Below, piece by piece: positions 28,448 through 61,542 of a DNA stretch of 61,617 bases (positions are counted from its first letter, which is position 1; each line of letters begins with the position of its first letter). Below the pieces are notes generated by a model. The model saw only the letters and a program-made list of their open reading frames with translations, was not told the DNA's origin and did no database searches. The translations under genes were made by a program, and so were the position numbers. Source of the DNA: Nitrospina sp. (lineage in GTDB: Bacteria > Nitrospinota > Nitrospinia > Nitrospinales > VA-1); NCBI GenBank assembly GCA_018702695.1, contig JABIYR010000072.1, forward strand, positions 1-61,617, read 5' to 3'.

Positions 28448-29140
28448 TTAAATCTCTATTGGAGGGGACTCAGTCCGGTATAATCGATTTTTCATAATAT
28501 AATGATCAACCGCAGGGGGCAACAAATTTTTAATTTCTTTTCCGGTTTGCACTTTGCCGCGGATTATTTTCGAAGAAATATCCTGAGGTGGAATTTGAAA
28601 TAAGCGGATGCTTTTACCGATTGCCGGGTTCAAAGTGATCCACTGCGAGGGGCTATTTATTTCGCGTTGATCTTTGTTTAGTGCAAGTGTCTGGCAAAGT
28701 TTATCGGGAACTTCTAAGTTTATACCCGGTCTTGTGCTAACCAGTAGATGGCAACATTTGAATATTTCTGCATAATTTTTCCAAGTATCTATCATTAAGA
28801 AGGCATCCGCACCCAAGATCAGATAAAGCTCCCAATCAGGGTGTTGGATTTTTAATTGGGATATCGTGTCGATGGTATAAGAAATGCCACTTCTATTAAT
28901 TTCTAGCAATTCAAGAGGGAAATTAGATTTGTCTTTCAAAGCGAGTCGAAGCATGGCTATTCGATGCATTGAAGCCGTGGGTGGGGATTGAATTTTGTGC
29001 GGGGATTGATTGGCAGGAATGAATAACACCTTGTCTAAGTCAAAGGCTTGAATTGCTTTTTCTGCAAGACCCAGATGTCCGTTATGAACGGGGTCAAAGG
29101 TTCCTCCCAGCAAGCCTATCTGTTTGGGTCGATTGTTCAT
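28448..29140 (-). CDS. nadD: Nicotinate-nucleotide adenylyltransferase
   Basis: A 230-residue enzyme that converts nicotinate mononucleotide plus ATP to deamido-NAD. It has the nucleotidyltransferase motif IGLLGGTFDPVHNGHLGLAEKA near the N-terminus, FIPANQSPHK, the LILGADAFLMIDTWKNY block and the C-terminal ISSKIIRGKV (ISSTxIR). It works with NadB, which is also encoded in this window at 33442. First gene of a minus-strand operon nadD-rsfS-dksA-like-lapAB-like, divergent from pilA. Confidence 0.95.
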   Translation of the reverse strand: MNNRPKQIGLLGGTFDPVHNGHLGLAEKAIQAFDLDKVLFIPANQSPHKIQSPPTASMHRIAMLRLALKDKSNFPLELLEINRSGISYTIDTISQLKIQHPDWELYLILGADAFLMIDTWKNYAEIFKCCHLLVSTRPGINLEVPDKLCQTLALNKDQREINSPSQWITLNPAIGKSIRLFQIPPQDISSKIIRGKVQTGKEIKNLLPPAVDHYIMKNRLYRTESPPIEI

Positions 29141-29449
29141 GTAACAAATCGTTCCACAAACCCCTACTTATCGCAAGAAAAATTAGATTATAAAAACAGC
29201 ATTGCCATTGAATGCAAGGGAGTGACAATTTTTGCGAACTAAACTGACGAAAATTGTCAGTTTAGTGGTGGATATCCGTATTTAAATATCTTCCTGAGAA
29301 AGAAAATTCTATAACACATTATAAAAAAAGGGTTTATAGTAAATAATGCGAAAATCTATTAAGAAGGCATAAGTTTTGCATTTTAATCGACAAGTCAAAA
29401 TAGTAAATCCCAAGTTCATTTTTGTTAACTATAATTATAGGAGTGAGTA
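29141..29449 (+). other. 309-base regulatory region between nadD and pilA
   Basis: No gene is visible. It holds a perfect 11-bp hairpin, ACTAAACTGAC (29238-29248) with GTCAGTTTAGT (29256-29266). A competing 9-bp pairing joins GACAATTTT (29224-29232) to AAAATTGTC (29250-29258), so the two structures are mutually exclusive. The sigma-54 site at 29365 lies about 100 bases downstream, which is the usual distance for an activator-binding site. Confidence 0.55.
29365..29380 (+). promoter_or_regulatory. Sigma-54 (RpoN) promoter of pilA
   Basis: AGGCATAAGTTTTGCA has GG (29366-29367) and GC (29378-29379) at the required 10-base spacing and GGCA...TTGCA matching the consensus. Transcription would start near 29391 and give a leader of about 60 bases with ATAGGAGTGAGTA ahead of the start codon. 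pilA genes of many bacteria are RpoN and PilR dependent. No pilS or pilR is in the window. Confidence 0.62.
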
Positions 29450-29830
29450 ATGTTATCTAAGTTCAAGATGGCTAGAGGAGAAAAGGGTTTTACCCTTATT
29501 GAGTTACTGATCGTTATTGCAATCATCGGTATTTTGGCGGCTATCGCGATTCCTCAGTTCAGTGCTTACAAGAACCGAGCTTACCAGTCGGATTCTAAAG
29601 CCAACCTGCATAACTTGTTCTTGGCTTGTAAAGCCTATTGGGCAGATGAAGGTGGCACGTCCGATTGCGCTGTTGCAGCTGTTACTGGTGGTACTTATGG
29701 TTATGCTCAGTCAACAGATGTCACGGTTGCTATCACCACGGCTCCTGAGACTACTTTTGTGGCGACAGCAATAAACACCAAAGAAAACACAACCTTTTCG
29801 ATCTCTTCAGACGGCGCGATTACACCGTAG
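29450..29830 (+). CDS. pilA: Type IV major pilin PilA
   Basis: A 126-residue type IVa prepilin. The leader is MLSKFKMARGEKG, and the mature part starts FTLIELLIVIAIIGILAAIAIPQFSAYKNRAY, an almost canonical N-methylated helix with glutamate at +5. The C-terminal globular part is small, with two cysteines (LACKAY and TSDCAV) that are close together in sequence and may pair, and many threonines and serines (about 70-126) that could be O-glycosylated. It has a strong ribosome site (AGGAG, about seven bases before ATG), its own sigma-54 promoter and a terminator, so it is probably a monocistronic high-level gene. Confidence 0.95.
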   Translation: MLSKFKMARGEKGFTLIELLIVIAIIGILAAIAIPQFSAYKNRAYQSDSKANLHNLFLACKAYWADEGGTSDCAVAAVTGGTYGYAQSTDVTVAITTAPETTFVATAINTKENTTFSISSDGAITP

Positions 29831-29851
29831 TTGAGCTTTTTGTTGATGCAG

Positions 29852-29898
29852 TTTCCCCATTCCTCGTCTGTTAGGCGGGGCGTGGGGAGTTTTCTTTT
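29852..29898 (+). terminator. Rho-independent terminator of pilA
   Basis: TTCCCCA (from 29853) pairs with TGGGGAG (ending 29889), with further internal G/C pairing in the loop, followed by TTTTCTTTT at 29890-29898. It separates pilA from the mannosyltransferase-like gene, although partial read-through would connect them. Confidence 0.7.
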
Positions 29899-29916
29899 AA
29901 CGGTCCAATCCGCTTT

Positions 29917-32156
29917 ATGACAGCCCTTCCTTTAAAGACTCGAATCTTTTTTTTTTAATTCTGCTCCCTGCTGTTGTTTATCTTGGCACGCTTGCACCGA
30001 CCCTTGATTATCGAGATTCACCGGAATTCATCGACACGGCTTTTTCTTTAGGAATCAGTCACCCTGCGGGTTTCCCCACCTATAACTTATTGGCCAAGAC
30101 CATTACTTTTCTTCCCTTGGGTTCGATGGCTTTCAAGGTCAACCTATTTTCGATGGTTTTTGCTTGCCTGACTCTGATTTTTCTGTACCTCACGACTCAG
30201 CTGTTTCTTGAAATAGTGTTTGGGCCGGGGCAAGATCGAATCATTGTGGGGGTTTTTCCTGTTTTATTTTTGGCATTCAGCGAACCATTTTGGTATCACG
30301 CGTTGATTGCGGAAGTTTATAGCCTGCATTCATTTTTTACCTGTCTGATTATTTATCACCTCTTGCAATGGAGAGTGAAAGCGGATATTCGTTATCTATT
30401 TTCAGCCGCTTTTTTTTATGGCTTGAGCGCGGGAAACCATGCAACCGTTGTTTTCTATCTGCCAGCGATATTATTATTATTTTTGGCATGGCAGAAAAAA
30501 GCACGTTTTAAAAATATTGTCATTTCCAGCTTAATTTTTATTATCGGTTTTTCGGTCTATTTGTATTTACCCGTTCGCTCTTTAGCAGAACCGACGATTG
30601 ATTGGGGAAACCCGGAAACGGTGCAGGGTTTTTTATACCATGTCACCGACCGACAACATGCAAACACCCATTTTGATCAATTATCGGGGGCACCACCCGG
30701 CACACTTGATGAAGTCGCTATAGGTTTGAGTGGGTTGGGAGGCAAAGCCCTGCATGTTCTAAATATGTTGGTGCAGGATCTGAATCAGCAACTCACAGCG
30801 ATCATTGTTGTGGGTTTTCTTTTCGGGGGAATATTGTGTTTTAAGGCAAATCGCCCGTTATATTTCTTCTTTTTCTTGATTGTCGCGATGAACGCCGCAT
30901 TTTTTGTGGGGTGGAGAAAAGAAAGTTATTTTCCTTCCCATATTGTAGCTTGTATGTGGACTTCCGCTTTTTTAGCTTGGCTTTTCCAGCAAAAAGGGTT
31001 GAGGCCGTCAACGGCTTTAAAACAGGGGCCGCTGGTAAAAGGCAAACTTTCAGTTCAGCCCAACGGGCAGACCTTGGTTATTTTGGTTCTGGTGGGGTGC
31101 GTACTGTGGCAGATCTCTTCGAACTATAACAAGGTGGATCGTTCGGGCAACTATTTTGCCGAGTCTTTATTAAAGCGAATGGTGCTCTCTCTGGATAATG
31201 ACAGTATTTTTGTTGCGGGGATTTCGTGGTTCAATGTCGCCTACCATCAGGATGTAATGCGGTTGAGAGATGATGTCACGTTTGTGAAAGCTTGGGATTT
31301 TTTGGATGTCTACCCTCCTTCCGTTTTGACTTCGAGAAAATATCCAGACCTGAAACTGCCGACGCCAGAGAAATTTCGCTTTGGATCCAGAGAAGAGTCT
31401 TATATGTATCTGCTAGATTTTTTTAATAAAAATGCAGCGCAACACCCGGTCTTAATCGAACAAAATATTTCACTGTTGCAGGAATTTCCTTTAGCAGAAA
31501 AACTGGCTCCGCACAATAATCTGTTATTGCGCTATTTGCCCCAGCCAGACCTCACTGCCAGCGATATTTCGCAAGGGTTTGCTGAATTCAAGCAGTGGAT
31601 GGAAGAAGAATTGAGTCTACCGGGAATTCAACATGACCCAACATGGATCCGAAAGATAACCTTTTATATTCCTTCTTTTGCCGCATATTTCCATTCTGCA
31701 GGTTATTATAAAGAGGAAAGAGATGCTCTGCGATTAATGAAAGAATTTCTCGGGCAGGGCGGGGTCGCTTGGGATTTTAAGATGGTGGACAACTATATTC
31801 TTAGTAATGAGTTGGATAGGGCGCGTCAGCAATGGAAAGGCATGAAGCAAAAATTTCCCAATCATTATGAGACCCATTTGGCGGCAGGGATTTTATTGAG
31901 TCAGGAAGGAAAAGAGAAGGAAGGCCTGAATGCATTGAACAGAGCTTCTGATAAAAAACAGAAAGCATTTCGTCCTTATTTTGAATCTGCGAAAACCAGA
32001 ATAGTGTTGAAAGACTTTGAAAATGCTAAAAGAGACTTGGGGCAGGCCCGAGCCCGAATCACCTCACTCGAAGAACTCAAGCAAGTACAATATATTTGTA
32101 GTATTGAGCGTTTTATAAGTGGCTCTGAAATATGCAAAACAGATGGAACTCTTTAA
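29917..32156 (+). CDS. TMEM260/DUF2723-type membrane mannosyltransferase, frame broken at a T10 tract
   Basis: A polytopic membrane protein of about 745 residues if read from ATG 29917. The N-terminal signature for DUF2723 (DSPEFIDTAF, then HPAGFPTYNLLAK) is encoded at about 30010-30104. The family includes human TMEM260, a protein O-mannosyltransferase. From ATG 29917 the frame reads MTALPLKTRIFFF and stops at TAA 29956-29958, because the run at 29947-29956 has ten Ts. Eleven would continue into the conserved sequence. The frame that encodes the body has no ATG, GTG or TTG before TTG 30090, which is inside the conserved region. About 11 membrane helices follow (to about residue 330), then a soluble TPR-like tail. 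Either a frameshift error, phase variation or slippage expression. Confidence 0.72.
29947..29956 (+). repeat. T10 homopolymer inside the mannosyltransferase gene
   Basis: Ten consecutive Ts lie within codons 11-14 counted from ATG 29917. A change of plus one or minus two bases opens the full frame. Homopolymers of this length are classic slipped-strand mispairing sites, and also classic sites of sequencing and transcriptional slippage. Confidence 0.85.
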
Positions 32157-32167
32157 GGTGTCCTTAA

Positions 32168-33118
32168 ATGTATAAAGAAAAAACTATATCTGTGGTGGTT
32201 CCTGCTCACAATGAGCAAAAATTGATTCAAAAGATGTTGCAGGATTTGCCACATTGGATCGACCATATTTATGTCATCGACGATTACAGTGAAGACGCTA
32301 CCGCCACGAAGGTAGAAGAACGAATGGCAACCGACTCGCGCATTAGTTTGATTCGCCATGAAAAAAATCAGGGCGTTGGGGCGGCCATTTGTACAGGTTA
32401 TAAAGCAAGCTTGGAAAATGAGGTTGACATCGCGGTGGTCATGGCAGGGGATGCTCAGATGGACCCCGCCGATTTAGAAAACCTGATACGACCGGTGGCG
32501 TTAGAAGGGGTGGACTACGCGAAAGGCAATCGTTTGTTTCAAGGCAAAGCTTGGGAGATCATTCCCCGGCACCGTTATATTGGCAATAGTGTTTTATCGT
32601 TATTGACCAAGATCGCCAGTGGCTATTGGCATGTTGCCGACACGCAGTGTGGATACACGGCGATATCAAAAAGAGCATTGGCATTGATAGAGCTGGATAA
32701 GGTCTACCCCCGGTATGGTATGCCCAATGACCTGTTGGTCAAGCTTAATATCGCTGATTGTTCGGTGCGTGATGTTCCCGTTCGTCCCGTTTACGATATT
32801 GGCGAGGTTTCCGAAATACGTATTTCACGGGTGGTCATGACCATATCGAGATTGCTGGTGCAATGTTTTTTTAGACGGTTGCTGGAAAAATATGTAATCC
32901 GAGATTTTCATCCACTGGTCTTTTTTTATACCCTCGGGCTGATCGCGTTTCCCACGGGGACTCTCACTGGCGGGTATTTTTTCTTGTATCGCATATTTTT
33001 TGGGCCGGTCTCCCCCACCACGGCTTTGTTCGCCGTCTTCATGGTGATGTCGGGTTTGCAGTTTCTATTGTTTGCCATGTGGTTTGATATGGAAAACAAT
33101 AAACATCTGAAAGGCTGA
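32168..33118 (+). CDS. Family 2 glycosyltransferase, polyprenol-phosphate sugar synthase type
   Basis: A 316-residue inner-membrane GT2 enzyme. The catalytic GT-A domain has VVVPAHNEQKLIQ (nucleotide binding), IYVIDDYSEDAT (first acidic motif), the VMAGDAQMDPADLENL DxD-type motif and DTQCGYTAISKRAL. Two C-terminal membrane helices (about 250-300) follow, as in GtrB and Dpm1-like synthases that load a sugar on undecaprenyl or dolichyl phosphate. It follows the TMEM260-like gene by 11 bases with AAGGTG just ahead of the ATG, so it is co-translated or at least co-transcribed. Such a lipid-linked sugar would be the donor for the upstream membrane mannosyltransferase. The sugar identity is not determinable here. 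Confidence 0.88.
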   Translation: MYKEKTISVVVPAHNEQKLIQKMLQDLPHWIDHIYVIDDYSEDATATKVEERMATDSRISLIRHEKNQGVGAAICTGYKASLENEVDIAVVMAGDAQMDPADLENLIRPVALEGVDYAKGNRLFQGKAWEIIPRHRYIGNSVLSLLTKIASGYWHVADTQCGYTAISKRALALIELDKVYPRYGMPNDLLVKLNIADCSVRDVPVRPVYDIGEVSEIRISRVVMTISRLLVQCFFRRLLEKYVIRDFHPLVFFYTLGLIAFPTGTLTGGYFFLYRIFFGPVSPTTALFAVFMVMSGLQFLLFAMWFDMENNKHLKG

Positions 33119-33153
33119 GTCTAAATGAAGGCTCGCGATACGAATGAATAAAG

Positions 33154-33321
33154 ATGTCATTGCCGTTCTATTTTTATCGCGGTGTGAAGCTCAAAGCGGG
33201 CCAACATGTCGTGGAGTTTTCGTACATTCCCGAAGAATTCCCAGTCGGATTAAGAATCAGTTTTCTTGCCTTGATATTTTGTGTCTTCGGACCCTTATTT
33301 TATCGGTTTATAAATCATTGA
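33154..33321 (+). pseudogene. Stranded C-terminus of a YfhO-family membrane protein
   Basis: This 55-residue reading frame reads MSLPFYFYRGVKLKAGQHVVEF and continues with YIPEEFPVGLRIS before a final hydrophobic helix and RFINH. The pattern AGxHxVxFxYxPxxFxxGLxIS plus one helix is the C-terminal end of YfhO-type glycosyltransferase-like membrane proteins of 700-900 residues. The frame is closed by TGA at 33145-33147, just upstream of the ATG, and no other piece of the protein is present. It is therefore a remnant left by a deletion downstream of the GT2 gene. A coincidental short gene is the alternative. Confidence 0.6.
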
Positions 33322-33441
33322 GTCGTAGATTGCAGGCGAGATTCGTTTTATTTCTCTGCGATAACGATTGTTATGATATGGCGGTATCATAGAATATCTA
33401 ATGTCCCTAGTATGTTGATTTTAAAGGGGTAATTTGATAGG

Positions 33442-35112
33442 ATGTGGGGCATGACTATCGCAAAGGATTTCATTGTAATCGGTTCGGGGGTGGCAGGGCT
33501 GACGTTTGCGTTGAAGGTTTGCAAATTCGGCTCTGTAGGCATCATCACCAAAGATGCGTTGGAAGAGTCGGCAACCAAATATGCTCAAGGCGGCATCGCC
33601 TCGGTGATGGCAGAAGACGACTCGTTTGATCTGCATGTCAAAGACACGATGGAAACCGGGCGTGGGCTTTGCCATGAAGATTTTGTACGCATTGCTTGTG
33701 GAGAAGGCCCGGCACGCATTCGTGAATTGATCGAATTGGGAGCCAAATTTGATCGCGTCCGTGGAGCTGGGTTTGATCTGGGCAAAGAGGGCGGTCATTC
33801 TAAACGCAGAATTTTACATGCCAATGATCTCACAGGTTGGGAGATTGAACGTACTCTCATTGAGGCGGTGCAGGCGCAAGAAAATATAGAAATATTTGAG
33901 CATCATATGGCCATCGACCTCATCACCCGGGCAAGGCTTGAGGAGGATGTGCAACCGGGAAGTCCGCAAGATGAAGCATTAGGCCTGTATGTTCTGGATC
34001 ATAAGACTCAAAAAGTAGAGACCATGGTCGGCGGAATCATTCTTCTGGCTACGGGTGGCGCGGGCAAAGTTTATGTTTATACCTCGAACCCGGATACGGC
34101 GACAGGCGATGGCGTGGCGGTGGCTTACCGTGCCGGAGCGCAGATTGCAAATATGGAATTTTTTCAGTTCCACCCGACCTGTCTGTTTCACCCTAAAGCA
34201 AAATCATTCCTCATTTCGGAGACGGTGCGAGGCGAAGGCGGAGTTTTGCGTTTGCAAAATGGCAACACCTTCATGGAGAGCTACCATCCTTTAGGGTGTC
34301 TGGCTCCGCGTGATGTGGTGGCACGTGCCATTGACTATGAGATGAAAAAGAGTGGCGATGATTATGTTTTGCTGGATGTCACGCATCTTGAGGGTTATAG
34401 AATTCGCGAACGTTTCCCCAATATTTATAAAACCTGTTTGGATTTTGGTTTCGATATGTCCCGCGAGCCATTGCCAGTTGTGCCGGCGGCACATTATATG
34501 TGCGGTGGGCTGGTGGTCGATGTCAGCGGTCAAACAAATATAAAACGACTTTTTGCCAGTGGAGAGGTGTGCTTTTCTGGTCTGCACGGAGCCAATAGAC
34601 TGGCCTCCAACTCTTTGTTAGAAGGGTTGGTGCTTTCTCACCGTGCGGTGGAAAAAGCGGTGGGCATATTTAAAGAATCAAAACTATCTAAAACTTTGTT
34701 GGAACAGATTCCTGAATGGGATCCGGGAAGCGCGGTAGATAGTGATGAGTCGGTGGTGGTTTCGCATAACTGGGACGAAATTCGCCGGTTGATGTGGAAT
34801 TATGTTGGCATTGTTCGTTCCACAAAGCGCCTCAAACGGGCGGAACGTCGCATCCAACTTTTGCTGGAAGAAATCCAAGAATATTATTGGAATTTTAAAA
34901 TTACCAAAGACACCCTGGAGTTGAGGAATCTCACCATCACAGCGCAGTTGATCATTCAGGGTGCGTTGACTCGAAAAGAAAGTCGAGGTTTGCATTATAA
35001 CCTCGATTATCCAGAAACCGATGACAAACACTGGAAACAAGATACGGTTTTTCAGAATCGCGTGCATCGATTGATAACTCAAACCAACCCGAGAATTGTG
35101 ACTCATGAGTGA
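33442..35112 (+). CDS. nadB: L-aspartate oxidase
   Basis: The FAD enzyme that oxidises aspartate to iminoaspartate, the first step of de novo NAD synthesis. 556 residues. Motifs include the FAD-binding DFIVIGSGVAGLTFALK, SATKYAQGGIASVM, the ILLATGGAGKVYVYTSNP block, EFFQFHPTCLF, the capping-domain segment HYMCGGLVVDVSGQTNIKRLFASGEV and GLHGANRLASNSLLEGLV. The start could also be ATG 33451, which has AGGA about eight bases ahead, removing three residues. It overlaps ftsK by eight bases. nadD is in the same window; nadA is not. Confidence 0.96.
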   Translation: MWGMTIAKDFIVIGSGVAGLTFALKVCKFGSVGIITKDALEESATKYAQGGIASVMAEDDSFDLHVKDTMETGRGLCHEDFVRIACGEGPARIRELIELGAKFDRVRGAGFDLGKEGGHSKRRILHANDLTGWEIERTLIEAVQAQENIEIFEHHMAIDLITRARLEEDVQPGSPQDEALGLYVLDHKTQKVETMVGGIILLATGGAGKVYVYTSNPDTATGDGVAVAYRAGAQIANMEFFQFHPTCLFHPKAKSFLISETVRGEGGVLRLQNGNTFMESYHPLGCLAPRDVVARAIDYEMKKSGDDYVLLDVTHLEGYRIRERFPNIYKTCLDFGFDMSREPLPVVPAAHYMCGGLVVDVSGQTNIKRLFASGEVCFSGLHGANRLASNSLLEGLVLSHRAVEKAVGIFKESKLSKTLLEQIPEWDPGSAVDSDESVVVSHNWDEIRRLMWNYVGIVRSTKRLKRAERRIQLLLEEIQEYYWNFKITKDTLELRNLTITAQLIIQGALTRKESRGLHYNLDYPETDDKHWKQDTVFQNRVHRLITQTNPRIVTHE

Positions 35113-61161: not shown

Positions 61162-61400
61162 AAAAGAAATTAGCTCAGTTTAAGGCTGTCATATTCCCTT
61201 TTAATTGAATAATATAGTAAAAAAATATAGCATTTATAGATTTTCGGTGCTAAACTTCACGGCTTAAATTAATGCAGGAATAATTTTTTTTTTTCTATCA
61301 GAAGACAGCTGTCCATGCTATAGTGTGTTATCGTAATCACCCTTTCGTGGTATGAAATCCTGTTAGTCTGAGCGAAATAGCTGAAAACCTCCAATTTATA

Positions 61401-61447: not shown

Positions 61448-61520
61448 GCTGGCGTAGCTCAGCTGGTAGAGCAGCTGATTTGTAATCAGCAGGTCGGGGG
61501 TTCGAGTCCCTCCATCGGCT
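61448..61520 (+). tRNA. tRNA-Thr (anticodon TGT)
   Basis: A complete cloverleaf of 73 bases: acceptor GCTGGCG pairing with the CATCGGC end (one mismatch, two G-U), D arm TAGCTCAGCTGGTAGAGC, anticodon stem GCTGA/TCAGC with loop TTTGTAA (TGT), T arm GGGGGTTCGAGTCCCTC. CCA is not encoded. It is followed 22 bases later by tRNA-Tyr. Confidence 0.93.
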
Positions 61521-61542
61521 CAAGAAACTTAAATGTTTTACC

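Follow-up and report, generated by a model that had tools for sequence, protein, structure and literature searches.

A run of ten T near the start of a TMEM260-like glycosyltransferase gene of Nitrospina sp. is probably a conserved recoding site that operates mainly by programmed transcriptional slippage, and production of the full protein apparently depends on a slip at this run, as judged from comparison of orthologous sequences. We think it very likely that genuine, functional recoding takes place here. Slippage with the addition of one extra U fits the observations better than ribosomal frameshifting, and we infer that it is RNA polymerase, not the ribosome, that slips.

The stretch that we analysed, here called the window, comprises 61,617 nucleotides from a draft genome of 2.49 Mb (Table 1). 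Reading of the sequence showed that a short frame, ORFa, encodes MTALPLKTRIFFF from the ATG at 29917 and then meets TAA at 29956-29958, which confirms the claim of an earlier, sequence-only reading of this DNA that the T10 run breaks the frame. The long frame further downstream contains no stop from 29901 until the one at 32154-32156, and its first ATG, GTG or TTG codon is the TTG at 30090, located 3' of the motifs DSPEFIDTAF and HPAGFPTYNLL; the family signature thus precedes every usable in-frame start, as had also been claimed. The homopolymer by itself is at chance level (3 matches to T10 in the window versus 2.95 expected); it is the conservation of the run, together with an identical frame break in 18 genomes, that is far beyond chance in the comparison of sequences. 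Among the 90 runs of at least nine T that were read in the window's genome, only the ORFa run has an ATG frame leading into it and a long frame devoid of a start behind it. In the codon-position test, the tail of the ATG frame gave differences of 13/17/16. No Rfam match was found within 29000-33500. We also considered that the T run might be a terminator tail of its own, and this was rejected because no hairpin lies directly 5' of it (mean folding z 0.19). For a separate T11 run at 61284-61294, shortly before tRNA-Thr (61448-61521), neither strand offers a long open frame.

Table 1. Coordinates of the features of the pilA-TMEM260-GT2 locus in the window.
Feature	Position	Strand	Basis
pilA-type pilin gene	29450..29830	+	N_methyl domain PF07963, E 1e-9; orthologue just 5' of the TMEM260 gene in 27 loci, including the G011 remnant
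Hairpin with T-rich tail (29890-29898), probable pilA terminator	29853..29889	+	folding z -2.8
ORFa	29917..29958	+	ATG, 13 codons, TAA directly 3' of the run
T10 recoding (slippage) site, candidate	29947..29956	+	T9/T10 followed by A in 18 genomes; codon identity; codon-usage probability
ORFb, TMEM260-like glycosyltransferase	29955..32156	+	starts at TTA 29955 after the shift; PF11028; human homologue; purifying selection
Codons of D20 and E23 (first loop)	30015..30026	+	invariant in 26/26 orthologues; lost with a start at TTG 30090
GT2 glycosyltransferase, possible polyprenyl-phosphate-sugar synthase	32168..33118	+	PF00535, E 2.7e-21

The break is shared far beyond this genome. Our survey covered 64 genomes of the order Nitrospinales-like group, in which the N-terminal regions of the orthologues were read; we call the group Nitrospina-like because the three nearest holders of the TMEM260 gene are MAGs deposited as Nitrospina sp. 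The genes are regarded as orthologues because they share synteny, namely NadD, RsfS, DksA and TPR genes in divergent orientation, then pilA, TMEM260 and GT2, followed by nadB and ftsK where the contig reaches that far. A common layout was found in 18 genomes from nine genera and two families, ranging from 39 to 60% GC: an ATG, 7-12 codons, a run of T9 (14/18) or T10 (4/18), and an A. In every one of these genomes the long frame is displaced in the same direction, and the base 3' of the run is A, though TTG outnumbers TTA in 17 of the 18 genes. The sequence-only reading had proposed a comparison of start-codon positions with homologous genes; this comparison placed the ATG in the same displaced frame, 71-86 nt before the P-T/S-x..RDSPEF motif, in all 18. 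The ATG frame ends with TAA or TAG straight after the run in 14/18 and slightly later in the other four (G019, G036, G039 and G052). The distance from ATG to motif is unchanged between the T10 run of the window's genome (G000) and the T9 runs of its genus relatives (80 bases), and also between T10 in G029 and T9 in G025 (83 bases), and therefore the length change within a genus represents a substitution at the 5' edge of the run, not an insertion or deletion. An ATG, GTG or TTG upstream in the long frame occurs in five of the 18 (G018, G025, G028, G036 and G039), always at non-conserved places; in G025 it sits inside the pilA hairpin. No clear Shine-Dalgarno sequence was seen before the ATG, and the same is true of the relatives with a continuous gene.

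Continuous genes devoid of the run were found in G017 and in the eight f2 orthologues that are readable, i.e. whose N-terminus lies on the contig, and the predicted fused product is homologous to these single-frame proteins. The expected joined N-terminus may be compared directly: it is MTQTTQLRPIFFLILF in the continuous gene of G049 and MNVFNIRPVFF+LIFI in G030. On the tree, run presence requires only two changes of state, with deep branches poorly supported, so that the run may have had either one origin with later losses or two origins. Decayed copies were also met. In G022 (L050) only eight T are present; the TMEM260 gene appears to be broken elsewhere than at the run, and GT2 looks broken as well. 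This decaying gene has not retained nine T. In G011 (L065, about 2583-2919) the TMEM260 gene is a decayed remnant between intact pilA and GT2.

In spite of synonymous divergence that approaches saturation, a single codon was used in 18/18 genes, among 95 invariant degenerate amino-acid columns, only for the two Phe residues of the run, both TTT. Calculated from each locus's own codon usage, the probability of the run was between 0.08 and 0.0015 per genome, and the product of the largest per-genus probabilities over nine genera is about 1e-16, a value which assumes independence between genera and is only approximate. Run avoidance served Baranov and colleagues as a means to identify slippage-prone genomes; where homologues retain a run of nine A or T, they see purposeful slippage as very likely (PMC1088944). 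Both features are present here: a run of conserved length lies at the frame junction of the homologues, and the genomic background avoids such runs in coding sequence. In about 286 kb of coding sequence (window ORFs and L036-L065, a set which includes related genes), we counted 2 other T runs of at least nine against 19.9 expected, and none of 500 shuffles gave a number as low. Shorter runs were not avoided (T8, 45 versus 44 expected; T7, 164 versus 120), nor were in-register T7 heptamers (73 versus 60.1), and runs of exactly eight were, if anything, enriched (43 versus 23.5). The sharp drop at nine and above thus forms a clean length threshold. The avoidance of T9 could also reflect replication slippage that makes such runs costly.

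As to the protein itself, ORFb matched the Pfam family PF11028 (TMEM260-like) with E 4.2e-33 and 115.1 bits (gathering cut-off 24.2), bearing out the family assignment of the sequence-only reading, and across residues 5-443 it shares homology with human TMEM260, whose structure has been solved (9rql; E 6.5e-25). The frame is intact over about 730 codons and is under purifying selection, with pN/pS of about 0.3 at saturated dS and dN/dS of about 0.16 for the G007/G008 pair. A start at TTG 30090 would drop the first membrane segment and the invariant residues D20, E23, H35, P36, G38, P40 and Y42. Because such a start removes conserved N-terminal residues, the intact enzyme seems to need the shifted product, as family conservation suggests. 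A search of plasmids returned only distant DUF2723 relatives, all of them Bacteroidota by genus name.

In the proposed mechanism, RNA polymerase would add one extra U on T9 or T10 in a fraction of transcripts, fusing the short N-terminus encoded from the ATG with the TMEM260-like frame, so that the first membrane helix would be part of the product, as would the conserved Asp/Glu loop, while unslipped transcripts would give a peptide of about 13 residues. The side remark of the sequence-only reading that slippage could yield full-length product was right. The same joined product would arise by programmed -1 ribosomal frameshifting on U_UUU_UUU inside the run, which we consider unlikely. This heptamer is in register in 18/18 genes, a stop codon mostly stands next to the run, and U-rich heptamers shift E. 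coli ribosomes at some level (PMC4066793). On the other hand, no stimulatory RNA structure was found downstream of the run (mean z -0.26 versus -0.35 in controls), inspection of the 18 sites revealed no conserved Shine-Dalgarno-like element upstream (usual for such sites, but not obligatory), and the adjacent stop is missing in four genomes. Moreover, other genes avoid nine T but not seven T in register, and every intact gene with the run has at least nine T in it. It is because T9 rather than T7 or T8 is avoided, T9 is conserved and downstream RNA structure is lacking that transcriptional slippage is favoured over ribosomal frameshifting, unproven as this preference is.

Phase variation, in which DNA insertions and deletions in the run would toggle the gene among cells, was the reading proposed from the sequence alone, and homopolymers beside surface-glycosylation genes indeed behave in this way in pathogens, as known from the Neisseria literature. 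However, in this between-species comparison all 18 orthologues are in one and the same "off" phase, where run length differs within a genus, substitution at constant spacing accounts for it, and the run keeps its codons throughout an order; the on/off switch is thus unsupported and, in our view, very improbable. Alternatively, translation might begin in the long frame at a non-AUG or leaky start right behind the run, leaving the ATG as a decoy; ATT 29958 and CTG 29961, which come after the run here, might suggest this. The post-run codons vary between relatives, however (ATT, ATC, TTT, TTC, ACT, GTC, ACG), with no shared start among them, and such initiation would remove part of the first membrane helix and leave the conserved T9 unexplained, which makes it extremely improbable. 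Finally, there is next to no chance that we are dealing with an assembly or read error or with a pseudogene. An error is conceivable only when the window genome is viewed alone, and this competing explanation is excluded in practice by the identical break in 18 separately assembled genomes. Decay of the gene does occur in relatives (G011 and G022), but the intact frame and the purifying selection acting on it contradict the pseudogene alternative.

As the sequence-only reading had stated, the gene adjoins pilA, which lies directly upstream wherever the contig covers that side. Upstream of the TMEM260 gene, most loci of f2 and some of f4 have two or three copies of pilA (L052, L053, L057-L064), as against usually one in f1. 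A hairpin with a T-rich tail stands between pilA and the ATG in nearly all loci, with z in relatives mostly from -3 to -5.8, though the pilA hairpin was not called in a strict terminator scan; given this position, transcripts that read through from pilA may supply the TMEM260 gene. Downstream, what had been read as a polyprenol-sugar synthase does belong to the GT2 family of glycosyltransferases, while its identity as a synthase is only plausible; the GT2 gene reached no NCBIfam equivalog cut-off. Within the genus, every GT2 gene accompanies either the TMEM260 gene or its in-place remnant, the latter in G011. In G002, G003 and G013 (L168, L171 and L172), one or two YfhO-family (PF09586) membrane proteins replace TMEM260 and GT2 between pilA and nadB, and probably also in G004 (L169); this is what one would expect if pilin-modifying enzymes can be exchanged for one another, and it suggests that such exchange has taken place. 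The conserved order of pilA, hairpin, TMEM260 and GT2 hints at a pilin O-glycosyltransferase whose output is held low. The enzyme would O-glycosylate the neighbouring pilin with a sugar lipid supplied by GT2; that the pilin is its target we hold to be slightly favoured by gene position. Output of the enzyme would stay well below that of pilin through slippage, to which read-through of the pilA hairpin may contribute. One may tentatively picture near-obligate slippage at the gene start as a throttle on the pilin to enzyme ratio, preserved across the order, stacked on pilA terminator read-through and either fixed or adjusted to nucleotide pools or transcription speed; we offer this as a possibility rather than as the expected outcome. 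We found nothing relevant in the literature on pilin glycosylation or slippage in Nitrospina.

Well-supported slippage in cellular, non-mobile bacterial genes is confined to few cases, namely Thermus dnaX, Shigella type III secretion and a Staphylococcus candidate (PMC1088944). In mxiE and spa13 of Shigella flexneri, overlapping frames are likewise joined by slippage (with an extra U in mxiE), which the longer product requires (PMC1088944, PMC5009743), but these genes belong to one plasmid lineage, whereas the Nitrospina-group gene is an order-wide chromosomal glycosyltransferase gene, whose run lies so near the start that the unslipped product has only about 10-22 residues. In Thermus thermophilus dnaX, slippage also takes place on a nine-base homopolymer (A) in a cellular gene (PMC1088944); there the slip gives a shorter second product, while here it would be needed for the main product to be made at all. 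Pseudo-pseudogenes and slippage-rescued endosymbiont genes resemble our case in the restoration of a disrupted frame and in having single-frame relatives, but are mostly isolated or recent (PMC1088944, PMC5009743), in contrast to a break selected over nine genera. The human O-mannosyltransferase TMEM260 (9rql) shares the first-loop D..E with our protein, which in turn is bacterial and encoded next to pilin and GT2 genes. As for the pilin O-glycosyltransferases TfpO/PilO, TfpM and PglS, they too are membrane enzymes encoded near their own pilin gene (PMC12645811), but the Nitrospina-group enzyme is TMEM260-like, not O-antigen-ligase-like, and is a candidate by gene position.

For annotation, the consequence is that gene callers will either pick the internal TTG, with loss of the Asp/Glu loop, or flag this gene as frameshifted, and a homopolymer break beside a surface gene is not by itself a sign of phase variation. 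For the biology of these ecologically important marine nitrite oxidisers, the recoding would be a deeply conserved cellular case, kept across their order, in which the intact protein seems to be obtained mainly or solely through slippage.
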